Source: Sulfurimonadaceae bacterium (GTDB taxonomy: Bacteria > Campylobacterota > Campylobacteria > Campylobacterales > Sulfurimonadaceae). Taken from it: a DNA stretch of 51,092 nucleotides. Every line of letters starts with the position of its first letter. Within the stretch, counting starts at the first letter, position 1. Shown piece by piece: positions 1 to 50,865 of this stretch. A program made the translations under genes and the position numbers. The DNA lies in contig JADGDM010000013.1 of assembly GCA_016744905.1 (NCBI GenBank), positions 1 through 51,092 of the forward strand, written 5' to 3'. Below the pieces are notes generated by a model. It had not been told where the DNA came from and ran no database searches. It was given only the letters and a program-made list of their open reading frames with translations.

Positions 1-2435
1 GGTTAGATAGTTTACATAAATATGATCAAAAACTCTATCAAGCTCTTTTGAATAATCTACTTTTAACAAAGAATAATGAAGAAAGTATTTTAAAAGAGCA
101 ACTTATTTTCACATTGATCATCATCTTATTTTTACTACTTTTCAACCGCTTTTTGGGCTTAAGCATGCTTAAGTCAATTATTTTACTTAAAGAGGGAACA
201 CATAATTTCTTTAGCTATCTTCATCATAACTCAGAAACTGCGACACAAATCAAGGTCAACTCTAATGATGAGTTTTCAGATATGTCTGATGAGATTAACT
301 CTGCAATGACAAAGTTACAAGAGCAATTTGAAAGTGACCGTGAATTTATTATGGAGATCACACATATTGCTGACCTTATGAGTGAAGGTGATTTTAGTGA
401 AAAGATCTATTTTGATGCCAACAATCCGAACCTTATTAAGTTAAAAGAAGTTTTTAACAATCTACTTACAATTATTCAGCAAAAGATCGATGCGCAATCT
501 GATGAGATGCAGATGATTAATAATTCTCTTGAAACACAGGTTTACCAACAAACACTCACCTTAGAAGAAAACTTAAAAGAGCTAAGTGCTTTTCAACTCG
601 CTATCAATGAGAGTTTGATGTTTATGAAAGTAGATATTGATAATGGTATATTAGATATTAATGACGCCATGCTACAAACATTTTTATATCCTAAAGAGCA
701 GATGTTAGGAAAAATGCCAAATGACTTTTTATCAGCTGATTATATAGACGATACAAGAGAACAAGTCCTTAATGTTGTTCGAAATAAAGAGATTTACAAC
801 GGAGTAATTGGATGGAAGGATAGTCAAGGAAATGAATTTTTTACTGATTCACATATTATTCCAATTTTGAAACGCAGTGGTGAAGTTGATTATCTTTTAT
901 CTCTATTTCATGACATTACCCCCATCATTCATTCAAGAGATAAAGCAATTCTAGCGGAGAAATCAAAAGATGAATTTTTATCTAATATGTCTCATGAGAT
1001 TCGTACACCACTAAATGCCATTTTAGGTTTTGTTGGAATATTACAAAAACGTGCTTTAGATGATAAGTCTTTACATTATCTTGATATTATTAACAGTAGT
1101 TCAAATTCTCTCTTAGGCATTATCAACGATATACTGGACTTTTCTAAAATTCAAAGTGGCAAATTCATGATTGAAAAACGTCTTTTTAGTCCGATACAAA
1201 TTATTAGTAATGCCATTTTACTTTTTGCTTCCAAAGCCTATGAGAAAGACATTCATCTCTTAAGTTATATTGACCCAAATATGCCTGCAGGACTTATTGG
1301 TGACGAAGTAAGAATTAAACAAGTCCTTTCCAACTTACTGTCTAACGCCTTGAAGTTTTCACCAGAGGGTTCCAGTATCCGACTCCGCGCTGTCTACAAA
1401 AACTCAGAGTTACATATTGATGTAAAAGATGAGGGTATTGGTATCGCTTTAGAAAACCAAGAGAAGGTATTTAAGGCTTTTGAACAAGCAGATGGTTCAA
1501 CAACAAGAGAGTTTGGAGGTACCGGTCTGGGGCTTTCCATCTCCGCTCATTTGGTAGAACTTATGAATGGTCACATCTCTTTAAAAAGTACACTAGGGGA
1601 AGGATCAACCTTCTCTTTTGCTCTAAATTTACCAGTTTCTCATGAATTAAGTGCCCAAGAAACCCATATCGAAAAGATTAAAAAACTCTCGATTGCCTTA
1701 CTAAAAGATGAAAACAATGCAGCCATGACAGATCTTTTAGAGAAGTACTTTAAAGATTATGGTGTCGAGAACTTTACTATCTATACCCATCTACAAGATG
1801 TTCAAGCTGATCTACTCATCTTTGTTTCTAGCCCCTATATAAATGATAAAATTCAAGCACTCAATATTCCATCCATCGCTTTACATAAGCAACCTTCTCA
1901 TATTTTTGATCACAATACACACATTTATAATCTCAATGCCCCTTTTGTACCACGCTTGGTTCTGGAATCACTTGATGATGCAACCATTGAACGTTTACGT
2001 ATTGATGAAGAGGTAGAAGTGGTAGAGGAACTTCTATTTGATGCACGCGTCTTAGTCGCCGAGGACAATAAAACCAATCAGATGCTCATCACCTTACTAC
2101 TTGAAGATTATGGAATTGATTATAAAGTCGCTGATGATGGAGATATTGCTGTTGAAATATTCAAAAAAGACAGTGAATTTGACCTCATATTAATGGATGA
2201 AAATATGCCAAATCTCAATGGAATTGCTGCTATGAGTATCATTAAATCATACATCAAAGAAAATGCCTTAAAAGAGACGCCTATCGTTGCGTTAACTGCC
2301 AATGCTATGCAAGGGGACAGAGAACGATTTTTAGATGAGGGGATGGATGACTTTATGACAAAACCTATTGAAACAACAGAGCTTGAACGTATCTTTTTAA
2401 AGTTTCTCAAACCAGCGCACGGAAAAACTAAGTGA
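1..2435 (+). CDS. Hybrid sensor histidine kinase, 5' end cut by window edge
   Basis: The reading frame is open to base 3 with no stop, so the true start and most of the sensor region lie upstream; the TTG at 48 is only an internal codon. In order the visible part has one membrane segment (about 110-170), a HAMP-like linker (about 190-330), a coiled coil, a PAS-like domain (about 580-930), a HisKA domain with phospho-acceptor His in SHEIRTP (codon 993-995), a HATPase with N box, DEGIGIA and GGTGLGLS, a degenerate receiver-like segment (about 1670-1990), and a C-terminal receiver with Asp in LILMDENMP (codon 2196-2198) and the KP lysine. It should autophosphorylate and pass phosphate to its own receiver, as hybrid kinases do. 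The signal and target are unknown. The downstream gene overlaps its stop (GTGA). Confidence 0.9.
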   Translation, partial: LDSLHKYDQKLYQALLNNLLLTKNNEESILKEQLIFTLIIILFLLLFNRFLGLSMLKSIILLKEGTHNFFSYLHHNSETATQIKVNSNDEFSDMSDEINSAMTKLQEQFESDREFIMEITHIADLMSEGDFSEKIYFDANNPNLIKLKEVFNNLLTIIQQKIDAQSDEMQMINNSLETQVYQQTLTLEENLKELSAFQLAINESLMFMKVDIDNGILDINDAMLQTFLYPKEQMLGKMPNDFLSADYIDDTREQVLNVVRNKEIYNGVIGWKDSQGNEFFTDSHIIPILKRSGEVDYLLSLFHDITPIIHSRDKAILAEKSKDEFLSNMSHEIRTPLNAILGFVGILQKRALDDKSLHYLDIINSSSNSLLGIINDILDFSKIQSGKFMIEKRLFSPIQIISNAILLFASKAYEKDIHLLSYIDPNMPAGLIGDEVRIKQVLSNLLSNALKFSPEGSSIRLRAVYKNSELHIDVKDEGIGIALENQEKVFKAFEQADGSTTREFGGTGLGLSISAHLVELMNGHISLKSTLGEGSTFSFALNLPVSHELSAQETHIEKIKKLSIALLKDENNAAMTDLLEKYFKDYGVENFTIYTHLQDVQADLLIFVSSPYINDKIQALNIPSIALHKQPSHIFDHNTHIYNLNAPFVPRLVLESLDDATIERLRIDEEVEVVEELLFDARVLVAEDNKTNQMLITLLLEDYGIDYKVADDGDIAVEIFKKDSEFDLILMDENMPNLNGIAAMSIIKSYIKENALKETPIVALTANAMQGDRERFLDEGMDDFMTKPIETTELERIFLKFLKPAHGKTK

Positions 2436-45794: not shown

Positions 45795-46318
45795 TGCTTA
45801 ATCCTTATCATCGTACAGCGTACACCCAACATAGGTAAAACCAGAGCCCCACTACTTAAAACTAAAATGTAAAGATAGTAGACATTGAACCAGGCAAAAC
45901 TGCCCTCAGTAAAAAAGTAACTTAATACAGAAATAATAATCATCTGCACCGCAACACTCCAGATGATGGCAAAGAAGAATTTTCTAAAGATTTTTGTCTG
46001 CTCAAATACCTCAGGACGATCAATCACACTTTTTCCATCGCAAGACAGGAGTAGAAGTTTTTTACCATCAAAGCAGTGTTTAAATAGTTTTTTTACACTT
46101 AATAGTAAACCTACAACAAAAGAGAAACTCCATGCAAAAGCAAAATAAAATAAAAATATACTCCACAGTGCACTAAGTGTTTCAAAATTCAACATAGCAC
46201 TGCTTCGAAAAAAATGTATGGATGTAATAAAAAAAGAGAGAAGTGATGCAAGCAATACCGAAAAACCACTAAGCCAAGTTGCCCAATAGCCCCAAGTAAA
46301 AAACCAAAATTTAGACAT
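45788..46318 (-). CDS. Membrane protein of unknown function
   Basis: 176 aa with four hydrophobic helices (about residues 12-33, 48-70, 108-132, 140-160) and short loops; starts MSKFWFFTWGYWATWLSGF, rich in Trp. No family recognised. It overlaps the genes on both sides (8 bp with 46311-46742, 7 bp with the exonuclease), so all three form one operon. Confidence 0.65.
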   Translation of the reverse strand: MSKFWFFTWGYWATWLSGFSVLLASLLSFFITSIHFFRSSAMLNFETLSALWSIFLFYFAFAWSFSFVVGLLLSVKKLFKHCFDGKKLLLLSCDGKSVIDRPEVFEQTKIFRKFFFAIIWSVAVQMIIISVLSYFFTEGSFAWFNVYYLYILVLSSGALVLPMLGVRCTMIRIKQC

Positions 46319-46742
46319 CTAGTTTTTTCACACTGCCAATCATGTCATGATAATGTTCTAAGGTTTTAAAACTTTTTTCAAATCGCCAACGCAAAACAAA
46401 GGTGATAATAGAATTTTTAACTTTCTCATCGACTTTCTCAGCGCGCCCAAAATAACCCAAAGAGATGTTTTGTGATTTTGTTTTGGCATTAGGGTTGTAC
46501 TTGATAGCAATAATTTGCATATATTTACCTTCTCTAACGGTTCCCAAATCTTCATCACTCAGACTCACTCCACTAAGGTTCATCGCTTTATACGCAAAAA
46601 TCTCTTCAAATTCACTGTGTTTATTATCAATCTCAAGTGTTTTATAAAGCTCTTTTAAAATTTCCATATTCTCTTTTCTAGCCACTTCATAGCTAGAGAT
46701 TTTGGCTGTTAAATTCTTAAGACGATCCAGTGCAGAACTCAT
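46311..46742 (-). CDS. Protein of unknown function
   Basis: 143 aa, soluble, with a helical N-terminus (residues 1-45) and a C-terminal alpha/beta part (YMQIIAIKYNP, LRWRFEKSFKTLEHY). No motif recognised. First gene of the minus-strand operon and divergent from the cloverleaf element and murA. Confidence 0.6.
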   Translation of the reverse strand: MSSALDRLKNLTAKISSYEVARKENMEILKELYKTLEIDNKHSEFEEIFAYKAMNLSGVSLSDEDLGTVREGKYMQIIAIKYNPNAKTKSQNISLGYFGRAEKVDEKVKNSIITFVLRWRFEKSFKTLEHYHDMIGSVKKLDV

Positions 46743-46797: not shown

Positions 46798-46806
46798 TGC
46801 TATAAT
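46798..46806 (+). promoter_or_regulatory. Extended -10 promoter before the cloverleaf element
   Basis: TGCTATAAT matches the extended -10 form TGnTATAAT common in this phylum. The predicted transcription start (about 46813) is roughly 9 nt before the first base of the cloverleaf structure. Confidence 0.6.
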
Positions 46807-46821
46807 TGCGCAAAATATTAA

Positions 46822-47087
46822 AGGCACATCTAAAAACCCTAGATACTCTCAGAGGGATAAAGAGGTGTTAGTTAGTTCTGAACTTTTTAGGAGTCTTAGC
46901 CACTGCTAAGATGATGAAAAATTCTGAGCTAAATGGCACCTCATTATCCCTCCCTGCGGGCTTACAAGCGGAACACACACTCTGCGTTAAATTTTTACGT
47001 CGTAGCTATGGCTATGACTTAAAAAATTTGTCTTGATTGTGAATTCCGCTTGTAAGCTGAGAATATCTAGGATTTTTAGATATGCCT
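46822..47087 (+). ncRNA. Candidate structured RNA or palindromic element (three-way junction)
   Basis: Nearly all of this 266-bp stretch is self-complementary. The outer stem pairs 46822-46852 with 47057-47087: 31 positions, three mismatches. Inside are two long hairpins. Hairpin B (46852-46952) has a 16-bp base (46852-46867 with 46937-46952, one mismatch), an imperfect middle, and a 7-bp tip TCTTAGC/GCTAAGA. Hairpin C (46960-47057) has a 14-bp perfect base (46960-46973 with 47044-47057) and an 8-bp tip, GTCGTAGC with GCTATGAC. It directly follows an extended -10 promoter and ends 14 bp before the murA start. It could be a structured leader, a separate sRNA, or a MITE-like element; no known family is recognised. 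Confidence 0.6.
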
Positions 47088-47101
47088 GCACTAGGGTTTA
47101 T

Positions 47102-48364
47102 ATGGATTATTTACAGATACAAGGGCCAACGAGACTCAGCGGTGAAGTACGCATCTCTGGAGCTAAAAATGCAGCACTACCAATCATCGCTATGATGTTA
47201 TTGGCAAAGAATCGTGTTGAGATTGACAATATGCCTGAAGTTGTTGATATAAAGACCCTACTTAAACTCATCGAGAACCTTGGTGGAAACTTTGCACTTG
47301 AAGACAACCACCTAAGTATCGAAACCCATAAAATCACCAATACAAAAGCAACCTATGACATCGTTAAAACCATGCGTGCTTCGATCCTTGTTTTAGGACC
47401 ACTACTTGCACGTTTTGGGCACTGTGAAGTATCACTACCTGGTGGATGTGCTATTGGTCAACGACCTATTGATCTTCATCTTAAAGCCTTAGAACAGATG
47501 GGGGCAAGTATCAGTATTCATGCTGGATATGTTCAAGCTGTTGCAGAAGATGGACTAAAAGGTGCGGAGATTATATTTGATAAAATCACCGTCACTGGAA
47601 CTGCCAACATCGTAATGGCAGCTGCCTTGGCCAAAGGCAAATCAACACTTATTAACTGTGCCAGAGAGCCTGAAGTTGTTCAACTTTGTGAAGTGCTTCG
47701 TGATAGTGGCGTCAGTATAGAAGGAATCGGTACCTCTCAGCTTACTATCTATGGAACAGATAGACGTCTTATCGAAATCGAGCCTTTTAGTGTTATACCT
47801 GATCGTATCGAAGCCGGAACATATCTTTGTGCCGGAGCTATTACCAAATCAACCATGAGTATTACAAATGCCAACCCTCATCATCTTAGTGCTGTCATTA
47901 CAAAACTTGAAGAGATGGGTTGTACTTTTGACATTACTGAAGATCGCATCGAGATTAGACCCACTGAGTTTATTAAAAACGTCAATATTATCACCCAAGA
48001 GTATCCAGCCTTTCCAACAGATCTTCAAGCACAATTTTTAGCACTCTCCACACAAGCTGATAGTACCAGTAGTATAGAAGAACGCCTATTTGAAAATCGT
48101 TTTATGCATGTAAGTGAATTACAACGTCTTGGTGCAGATATCAAAATATCTGGGAACACTGCTTTGGTCGCAGGAGAGAGTGAGCTTTTTGGCGCCGATG
48201 TTATGGCAACAGACCTTCGAGCATCTAGCGCGCTGATCCTTGCCGCACTCGTAGCAAAGGGTGAGACGAATATCCACCGTATCTATCATTTAGACCGTGG
48301 ATATGAGAGACTAGAAGAGAAATTTATCTCTCTAGGTGCCAATATTAAACGTTTAAAAGAGTAA
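47102..48364 (+). CDS. murA: UDP-N-acetylglucosamine 1-carboxyvinyltransferase
   Basis: 420 aa from ATG 47102, with AGGG 5 nt before; the longer frame from 47033 runs through the cloverleaf element. Active-site features: [10 protein letters not shown] (Lys22, Asn23), the loop [12 protein letters not shown] with catalytic Cys116 (the fosfomycin target), and PEYPTDLQ-like [13 protein letters not shown]. It adds enolpyruvate to UDP-GlcNAc, the first step of peptidoglycan synthesis, in the cytosol. It stands alone with a terminator at its stop. Contains AGCGCGCT at 48227. Confidence 0.96.
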
Positions 48365-48918: not shown

Positions 48919-50865
48919 TTATAAAAAGTGACGTAAGGCTTTTTCTAGTTTCTGCGCATCTATCGGTTTAGAAAGGTAGTCATTCATACCTACGTCTAAA
49001 AACCGTTCTCTATCTCCCTTTAAAGCATTCGCCGTTACAGCCACTATTGGTGTCGTCTTTAATTCATTTAATACTTCGATTTCTCTAATCTTTTGTGTGG
49101 CTTCAATCCCATTCATATTGGGCATATTCTCATCCATTAAAATCAGCTCATAGTGATTGTTTTTAAACATTTCAATTGACTCTACTCCATCATTGGCAAT
49201 ACTTACTTCGCATCCTAATTCATTTAAAAGTATCTTCATTAAAAGTTGATTAGATTGATTGTCTTCTACCAATAATATATGTGCCTCTATGCGCTCACCT
49301 TTTTCAATATTAATATCCTCAACGTCAGTACTTGCACCATCTTCTAAGGCACCTATAAAAAGTGGCACTACAAAGCTAAAAGTACTGCCTTTATTAATAA
49401 TACTGTGCACATCAAGACTCCCATCCATTAACTCAACCAAGGCCTTAGAAATAGAGAGACCCAAACCAGTACCTCCAAATTTACGTGTTGTACTACTATC
49501 TGCTTGTTCAAAGGCGGAGAAAACTTTATTAATATTTTTATTTTCAATGCCGATACCACTGTCTTTTACAGAGCAGATGAGCGTAGAGTTACTTTTGTCA
49601 TAATCTAATTTGACAAAGATTTCACTATTTTCGTGAGAAAATTTAATAGCATTACTTAAAAAGTTAGAATATATCTGTTTAATTCGTGTTGTATCACCAA
49701 ATCCATTTTCAGGAAGATTATCACTATATTCGCAACGAATGGTAATATTTTTTTCACCAGCGCGCTCAAGATAGAGTTCGGTAATTAAATCATACGGTTC
49801 TATGGTTTTAAAATGTATCTTCTCTATATAAAGTTTTCCACTTTCTATTTTTGAAAAGTCTAAAATGTCATTAATAATAGAAAGGAGGGAGTTTCCAGAG
49901 TTTTTAATAATATCAAGCTTTTTTAGTTTTTCTGATGAATCTTCATTTTTATGTAAAAGGTCAATAAAACCGATAATTGCATTCATTGGTGTTCTAATTT
50001 CATGTGACATATTTGCCAGAAAAGAAGATTTACTTTCACTGGCTTCTTCCGCACGCTGCTTTGCAGTCTTCAACTCTTCTTCGACACGTTTACGCTGCGC
50101 AATTTCTGTTTCAAGTTGATTATGTTGATTAAGCATATCAATAGAAACACCTATTCTTGCTGTCACCTCTTCACGTACTAAAGGCTTAGTAATAAAATCA
50201 TTCGCGCCCGCTTTTAAAAATTCAACGGTAATAATTGAAGTGGTATGTGCAGAAATAGCTAAAATAGCCATTTCACTTCGAGAGTAGGATTTTCTTATAA
50301 TCTTGGTGAGTTCCACCCCATTCATATTGGGCATCTCATAATCGATTAATGCAATTTTTATATCACTGTGTTTTTTTAATAGTGAGAGTGCTTCTAATGG
50401 TTCTGTGGCGACTAAGACAGTAAAGTTTTGGTGGTTTAGGTATTTTTTAAGTTGGAATCTGGCGGATTGTGAATCATCCACCAGTAAGATTTTGGTATCT
50501 TTATTATTTAAAATTCTATCAACAGTTGTTTGTAAAAGTTCAAGATTTTGATCATCTTCAAGAACAATGTAATCAATAATTCCCTTATCTACGACATCTT
50601 CTCTTAACTCAGAGTGAAAACTTCCTGTCATAGCAATACATGGTATATTGAGTTTTAAAATATAATCTAAGGCGCAAGAACCGCAATCTGGAAGGTTAAC
50701 ATCAACTACCGCTAAAGTAATTCTTTTTTTTGAATCTCTTAACCTCTGCTTGGCTTCAATAAGATCGTAAGCAATAACTACATCATAGCCTTTATCCATT
50801 AAGACTTTTTGCTCATAGAGCGCAATGGTTTTATTGTCTTCTACAACGAGTATCACATCTTTCAT
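48919..50865 (-). CDS. Soluble hybrid histidine kinase with three receiver domains
   Basis: 648 aa with no membrane segment. Order: receiver 1 (residues about 4-120, Asp in [10 protein letters not shown]), receiver 2 (about 128-245, Asp in [10 protein letters not shown]), coiled linker, HisKA ([16 protein letters not shown], about 283), HATPase ([27 protein letters not shown]), and receiver 3 (about 530-645, Asp in [13 protein letters not shown], Lys in SKP). Two receivers in front of a kinase suggest it is controlled by upstream phosphotransfer instead of by a ligand. Receiver 3 closely resembles the one in the kinase at the window start. Contains AGCGCGCT at 49759. Confidence 0.92.

Follow-up and report, generated by a model that had tools for sequence, protein, structure and literature searches.

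The 266-base cloverleaf in front of murA, at positions 46,822–47,087 of the window (the whole 51,092-nt stretch of Sulfurimonadaceae DNA analysed here), is very probably an old copy, no longer mobile, of a type II MITE with IS5-family ends and no genes of its own. An earlier note on this DNA had offered two readings, a MITE-like palindromic element, or an sRNA or regulatory leader controlling murA. The first of them stood: the element is multi-copy, has terminal inverted repeats (TIRs) and a 4-bp target-site duplication (TSD), and an autonomous IS5-family element carries the same ends. The second found no support as a conserved function.

The window copy folds as a cloverleaf

The minimum-free-energy (MFE) fold of the 266 bases is branched as the earlier note had described, on both strands, with −131 kcal/mol (z −13.7) on the + strand and −129.7 kcal/mol (z −17.0) on the − strand; none of 200 dinucleotide shuffles came near these values. 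The coordinates that had been proposed hold to the base. So does the architecture: an outer stem of 31 bp with three mismatches (90% complementary), which are C opposite A on the + strand as had been remarked, encloses two long hairpins, here called arms B and C. Between the arms sits a mini-hairpin, CCCTGCGGG, which was absent from the earlier description and is kept across the family. The copy consists of a 264-bp core (46,823–47,086) plus a mutated outermost pair, A...T in place of the G...C of the family. No open reading frame of at least 80 aa lies inside the 264-bp element; a spurious upstream extension of murA alone enters it. The features of the locus are as follows.

46,798–46,806, + strand: extended −10 box (TGC TATAAT), TGCTATAAT, ancestral murA promoter; TATAAT stands at the matching place before murA in relatives
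46,818–46,821, no strand: TTAA, left half of the 4-bp TSD, still present; from family TSD statistics and the unoccupied site CAAAATATTAACTTTGG in a relative (G019, locus L264)
46,822–47,087, + strand: whole copy of the element read as a MITE; from BLAST matches in relatives and 112 distinct insertions
46,822–46,839, + strand: left TIR, AGGCACATCTAAAAACCC (family GGGCACCTCTAAAAACCC)
46,822–46,852, + strand: outer stem, 5' side
46,852–46,952, + strand: arm B (hairpin), tip TAGCCACTGCTA; stem halves 46,852–46,887 with 46,917–46,952
46,952–46,960, + strand: mini-hairpin CCCTGCGGG at the junction (family CCCNNNGGG)
46,960–47,057, + strand: arm C (hairpin), tip TAGCTATGGCTA; stem halves 46,960–47,006 with 47,011–47,057
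46,985–46,988, + strand: CGTT, 5' half of the arm C internal-loop motif, non-complementary; identical in all 36 aligned copies
47,030–47,033, + strand: GTCT (family GCCT, 34 of 36), 3' half of the arm C internal-loop motif
47,057–47,087, + strand: outer stem, 3' side
47,070–47,087, − strand: right TIR, AGGCATATCTAAAAATCC as read on the − strand
47,093–47,096, + strand: AGGG, likely Shine-Dalgarno of murA, five bases past the element end; from sequence inspection
47,102–48,364, + strand: murA coding sequence, ATG at 47,102; 57 of 60 genomes have a homologue of the 420-aa protein

Elsewhere in the window, two hybrid sensor kinase-like genes, at 48–2,435 (+ strand) and 48,919–50,865 (− strand), contain inverted stretches that are 78–79% identical (1,476–1,543 with 49,448–49,515, and 2,166–2,226 with 49,104–49,164).

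The element belongs to a dispersed family with defined ends

BLAST returned matches in 31 of 100 relatives, at most 14 per genome, many of them full-length at 264 bp and ungapped over positions 2–265. When the GTDB collection was searched with a pattern of two 13-bp ends spaced 220–250 bp apart, 86 stretches fitted. Nearly all come from Sulfurimonas, 'Helicobacteraceae' and 'Campylobacterales' MAGs, Sulfurospirillum, Arcobacter, Sulfuricurvum and Sulfurovum bins; such stretches also occur in Reinekea marinisedimentorum and one Eubacteriaceae MAG. After removal of repeats of one insertion we collected 112 insertions, again nearly all from Campylobacterota, among which a few may be one insertion present in two collections. 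Exactly 264 bp is the length of 64 of them, and 107 fall within 262–266 bp. Copies of one genome can be 95–100% identical, against a median of 70% over all pairs, which points to separate lineages having each had bursts of movement. No other copy exceeds 78% identity to the one in the window. A search of IMG/VR gave no copy with perfect 13-bp ends.

The ends of the family are inverted repeats, GGGCACCTCTAAAAACCC, degenerate in the window copy. With the outer G...C taken as part of the element, an exact 4-bp flank duplication was found at 60 of 105 insertions, compared with 12.9 expected from partner shuffling, and duplications of 3 and 5 bp were below expectation. The duplicated sequences are chiefly TTAA, TTTA and TAAA. 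Among 82 usable insertions 71 are intergenic; of 82 points placed at random in that DNA, 15 are. By simple ORF calling without curated annotation, 29 of these 71 gaps are divergent and 4 convergent, compared with 39 and 26 of 148 other gaps; convergent gaps are thus avoided (p=0.02) and upstream regions favoured.

These data bear on a third explanation, a chance or mutational palindrome that arose locally with no element behind it. Template switching can grow palindromes, and copying between arm halves does happen in this family (see L059 below); against this stand 112 related insertions with defined ends and TSDs, and the 200 shuffles, of which none folds as well. We give this explanation practically no weight, as the dispersed homologues refute it.

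No Rfam family matched at the gathering threshold, and a relaxed threshold gave one chance match (E 0.75). Our searches of the literature on the TIR sequence and on MITEs in Sulfurimonas and Sulfurovum found no description of the family. The family itself is new; its kind, a type II MITE with IS5-type ends, is already known.

An IS5-family element is the probable partner

Scanning the copy-rich genomes with PF01609 led to a 342-aa transposase in genome G048, encoded within a 1252-bp IS (L224) with the ends GGGCATCTCTAAAAAC. This protein belongs to the IS5 family (NF033581, 275.5 bits against a cut-off of 140, E 4.8e-82) and also matches PF01609. Its homologue in genome G068 lies in a 1270-bp IS (L235) with the left end GGGCACCTCTAAAAAC, one mismatch in the right end and TTAA on both flanks, and is 98% identical to an annotated 'IS5 family transposase' of an Aliarcobacter faecis plasmid. 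MITE and intact IS, both present in one bacterial order, have 16-bp ends and a 4-bp TTAA-type duplication in common; unlike the IS, the MITE has no transposase gene, and outside the ends the two show no similarity. Such ends-only likeness defines a type II MITE (PMC10969869). Because the ends are common to both, the MITE is probably moved in trans by an IS5-family transposase. A 533-bp internally deleted IS5-family element with a 4-bp TATA duplication (L238:1410–1942, genome G030) indicates that non-autonomous derivatives do move.

In most copy-rich genomes an IS of the partner type was not detected; fragmented assemblies often lose multi-copy IS. The window's own genome yielded no transposase of this type. 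Two sets of candidates were discarded: TIR pairs 1–1.5 kb apart in L214 and L208 enclose ordinary genes between stray ends, and other IS of the same genomes (L225–L232) have different ends.

Whole arms are gained and lost

Some copies differ in size. Versions of 158 bp lack exactly arm B (L200:993–1150 and L201:1069–1226, the latter with its TTAA duplication intact), and a 56-bp version flanked by TTAA on both sides has lost both arms (L203:1037–1092). Others, of 290–319 bp, contain extra inner sequence or palindromes (for example L193, L215 and L221). Whole arms thus behave as units of gain and loss.

Palindromes nested in palindromes were also seen, with AT-rich CTCCTAATAAGAGTAC...GTACTCTTATTAGGAG and similar sequences within an element arm (L221:1077–1381, L215:2699–3017 and L222:2742–3072). 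A related 264-bp copy has changed ends, GAGATCTCTGAA, and AATT on either side (L062:119–382); it is possibly a subfamily with a different transposase. The Eubacteriaceae MAG holds a 252-bp element with identical ends, a TTAA duplication and a different interior (L145:4982–5233), which could reflect binning contamination or another phylum. In the gammaproteobacterium Reinekea marinisedimentorum the same ends and fold and TTAA occur with other arm sequences (L122:2433–2694); there are four full copies, 92–100% identical, and a search for a related IS5 transposase in Reinekea found none.

The fold is kept by paired changes

Folded singly, 57 of 57 copies give essentially one branched fold. The covariation check of the stems, which the earlier note had proposed, gave values far above shuffled and slid controls. 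Among 36 copies less than 90% identical to each other, 94.5% of pair cells hold standard pairs, compared with 78.2 after shuffling; changes on both sides occur at 80 of 95 pairs (40.4 when shuffled, 34–48 for slid structures), and the covariation score is 0.458 against 0.146 when shuffled. In the window copy, despite its decayed ends, 93.7% of the consensus pairs survive.

Arm C is an inverted homologue of arm B, tips and flanks of the two corresponding in alignment, so that the first arm encountered in the 5'-to-3' direction is of one type on either strand. Consistently, the family profile matches both strands of the copies over their full length. A selected RNA is expected to tolerate G-U more than A-C. 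Across the family we counted 40 distinct GT and 47 distinct CA intermediates, which is about equal, and by cells the strand bias of GT and CA is opposite in arms B and C. In one copy (L059:533–795), comparison with its nearest relatives shows that the 5' half of arm C carries, in place of its former sequence, the 3' half in reverse complement, which by sequence is a templated quasipalindrome conversion. Together with the GT/CA symmetry, this conversion argues that the covariation has, at least in part, a mutational origin at the DNA level, and for that reason we claim no RNA function for the fold, which looks to be maintained at the level of DNA.

Palindrome copying does not account for everything. 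The non-complementary CGTT/GCCT of arm C hardly varies, and tandem G-A and U-G mismatches (G-T in DNA) persist in arm B, pointing to a sequence-specific constraint beyond simple copying. It is conceivable, though we lean against it, that the three-armed fold itself does work for the transposon, as a folded strand of DNA (or RNA) whose fixed internal-loop motif is recognised by something and which has been retained between Campylobacterota and a gammaproteobacterium through replacement of the arm sequences.

Alternatively, the family could be a mobile structured RNA, its copies transcribed from outside and selected for the folded RNA with its two arms, mini-hairpin and conserved internal loop, while DNA transposition does no more than spread them. 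The Reinekea copies, alike in fold and different in arm sequence, would fit this, as would a conserved internal loop, tandem G-A and U-G mismatches such as RNA loops often contain, and the preference for upstream regions over convergent gene ends (4 of 71 against 26 of 148 gaps). However, the equality of GT and CA, the opposite strand bias of the two arms, and the templated arm conversion that accounts for part of the covariation all speak against it, and we consider a mobile RNA unlikely.

A lone copy in the probable murA leader

The extended −10 box claimed in the earlier note is indeed present upstream of the element and aligns with TATAAT before murA of relatives. Alignments of the MurA protein to its homologues usually begin at residue 1. 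None of the murA loci of 29 relatives has the element, while the divergent neighbour gene (46,311–46,742) is conserved at 25 of them, which speaks against a conserved function as the regulatory leader that had been suggested. The proposed search for further copies thus found them scattered in relatives, with none before murA in the 29 and none more in the own genome, where a genome sequence search gave a single copy. A TIR search of that genome allowing two mismatches gave 30 places, compared with 15 for a reversed control, with the known element as the sole pair.

An unoccupied site in G019 (L264) reads CTATAATTACAAAATATTAA-CTTTGG...ATGGATTACTTA, matching CTATAATTGCGCAAAATATTAA-[element]-GCACTAGGG...ATGGATTATTTA in the window. 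By this correspondence, the element apparently entered directly after TTAA, between the −10 box and the ribosome site. The right TSD half is gone, GCAC following position 47,087. Judged from its sequence, the window copy is a lone, immobile relic, with a mutated end pair, half of its TSD lost and no such transposase in the genome.

Since it lies between the murA promoter and the ribosome-binding site, the element probably forms most of the murA leader in this genome, and it may affect murA expression. When the leader was folded from the expected start to codon 13, the element formed a closed domain with AGGG outside, and a pattern scan of the leader gave one weak terminator-like site. This position, the strong fold and the consensus pairs retained despite decayed ends speak for an sRNA or cis-regulatory leader under selection for murA control. 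However, such an RNA is missing before murA in the relatives, copies are scattered at many other sites, Rfam has no such family, and G-T is no commoner than A-C, so neither strand acts as a selected RNA. We regard selection for murA control as improbable and retain the reading as an inserted MITE.

Proposed history

We propose that the element was excised and inserted in trans by a transposase of the IS5 family, and that in this genome one copy came to lie at TTAA in the 5' untranslated region of murA and afterwards could no longer move. After insertion, the right TSD half would have been lost and the outermost G-C pair changed to A-T. The old murA promoter would now transcribe the element, so that murA mRNA would begin with a self-contained fold of about 265 nt. 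This fold is predicted to end five bases before the Shine-Dalgarno sequence without pairing to the ribosome site, and may alter mRNA stability or processing. Its upkeep in the family would be mainly at the DNA level, because palindrome arms are copied from one another, because a folded strand of DNA is required, or for both reasons.

Relation to known elements and implications

The type II MITEs QMITE1/2 of Coxiella and Chunjie of Geobacter (PMC10969869) likewise have TIRs, a target duplication, intergenic sites, a stable folded transcript, size variants and IS similarity confined to the TIRs; unlike them, the murA-element family has a nearly fixed length of 264 bp and a branched fold that paired changes have preserved across genera. 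CIR elements of Caulobacter and Brucella (PMC2229807) also have two hairpin arms joined by a linker, and conserved features; they are not listed with terminal inverted repeats, whereas the arms of the murA element are enclosed by a TIR stem. The bcr1–bcr18 repeats of Bacillus cereus (PMC3446304) are likewise MITE-like and often in UTRs, some families having conserved secondary structure; they differ by host and repeat family, the comparison being one of description. Correia/NEMIS elements of Neisseria (PMC10969869, PMC2229807) are MITEs carried in mRNAs and suggest a plausible way in which RNase III might cut the murA leader; they differ in having 5'-TA-3' termini and a simple stem-loop.

Collectively, a MITE family, absent from the libraries and literature that we searched, is spread through Campylobacterota together with a likely IS5 partner. 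Very strong base-pair covariation, normally taken as proof of a functional RNA, is found here in a DNA transposon with arm copying, and pipelines for RNA discovery could take such elements wrongly for riboswitch-like leaders, as at murA. If the conserved loop is bound by a protein, why MITEs stay folded would become directly testable.
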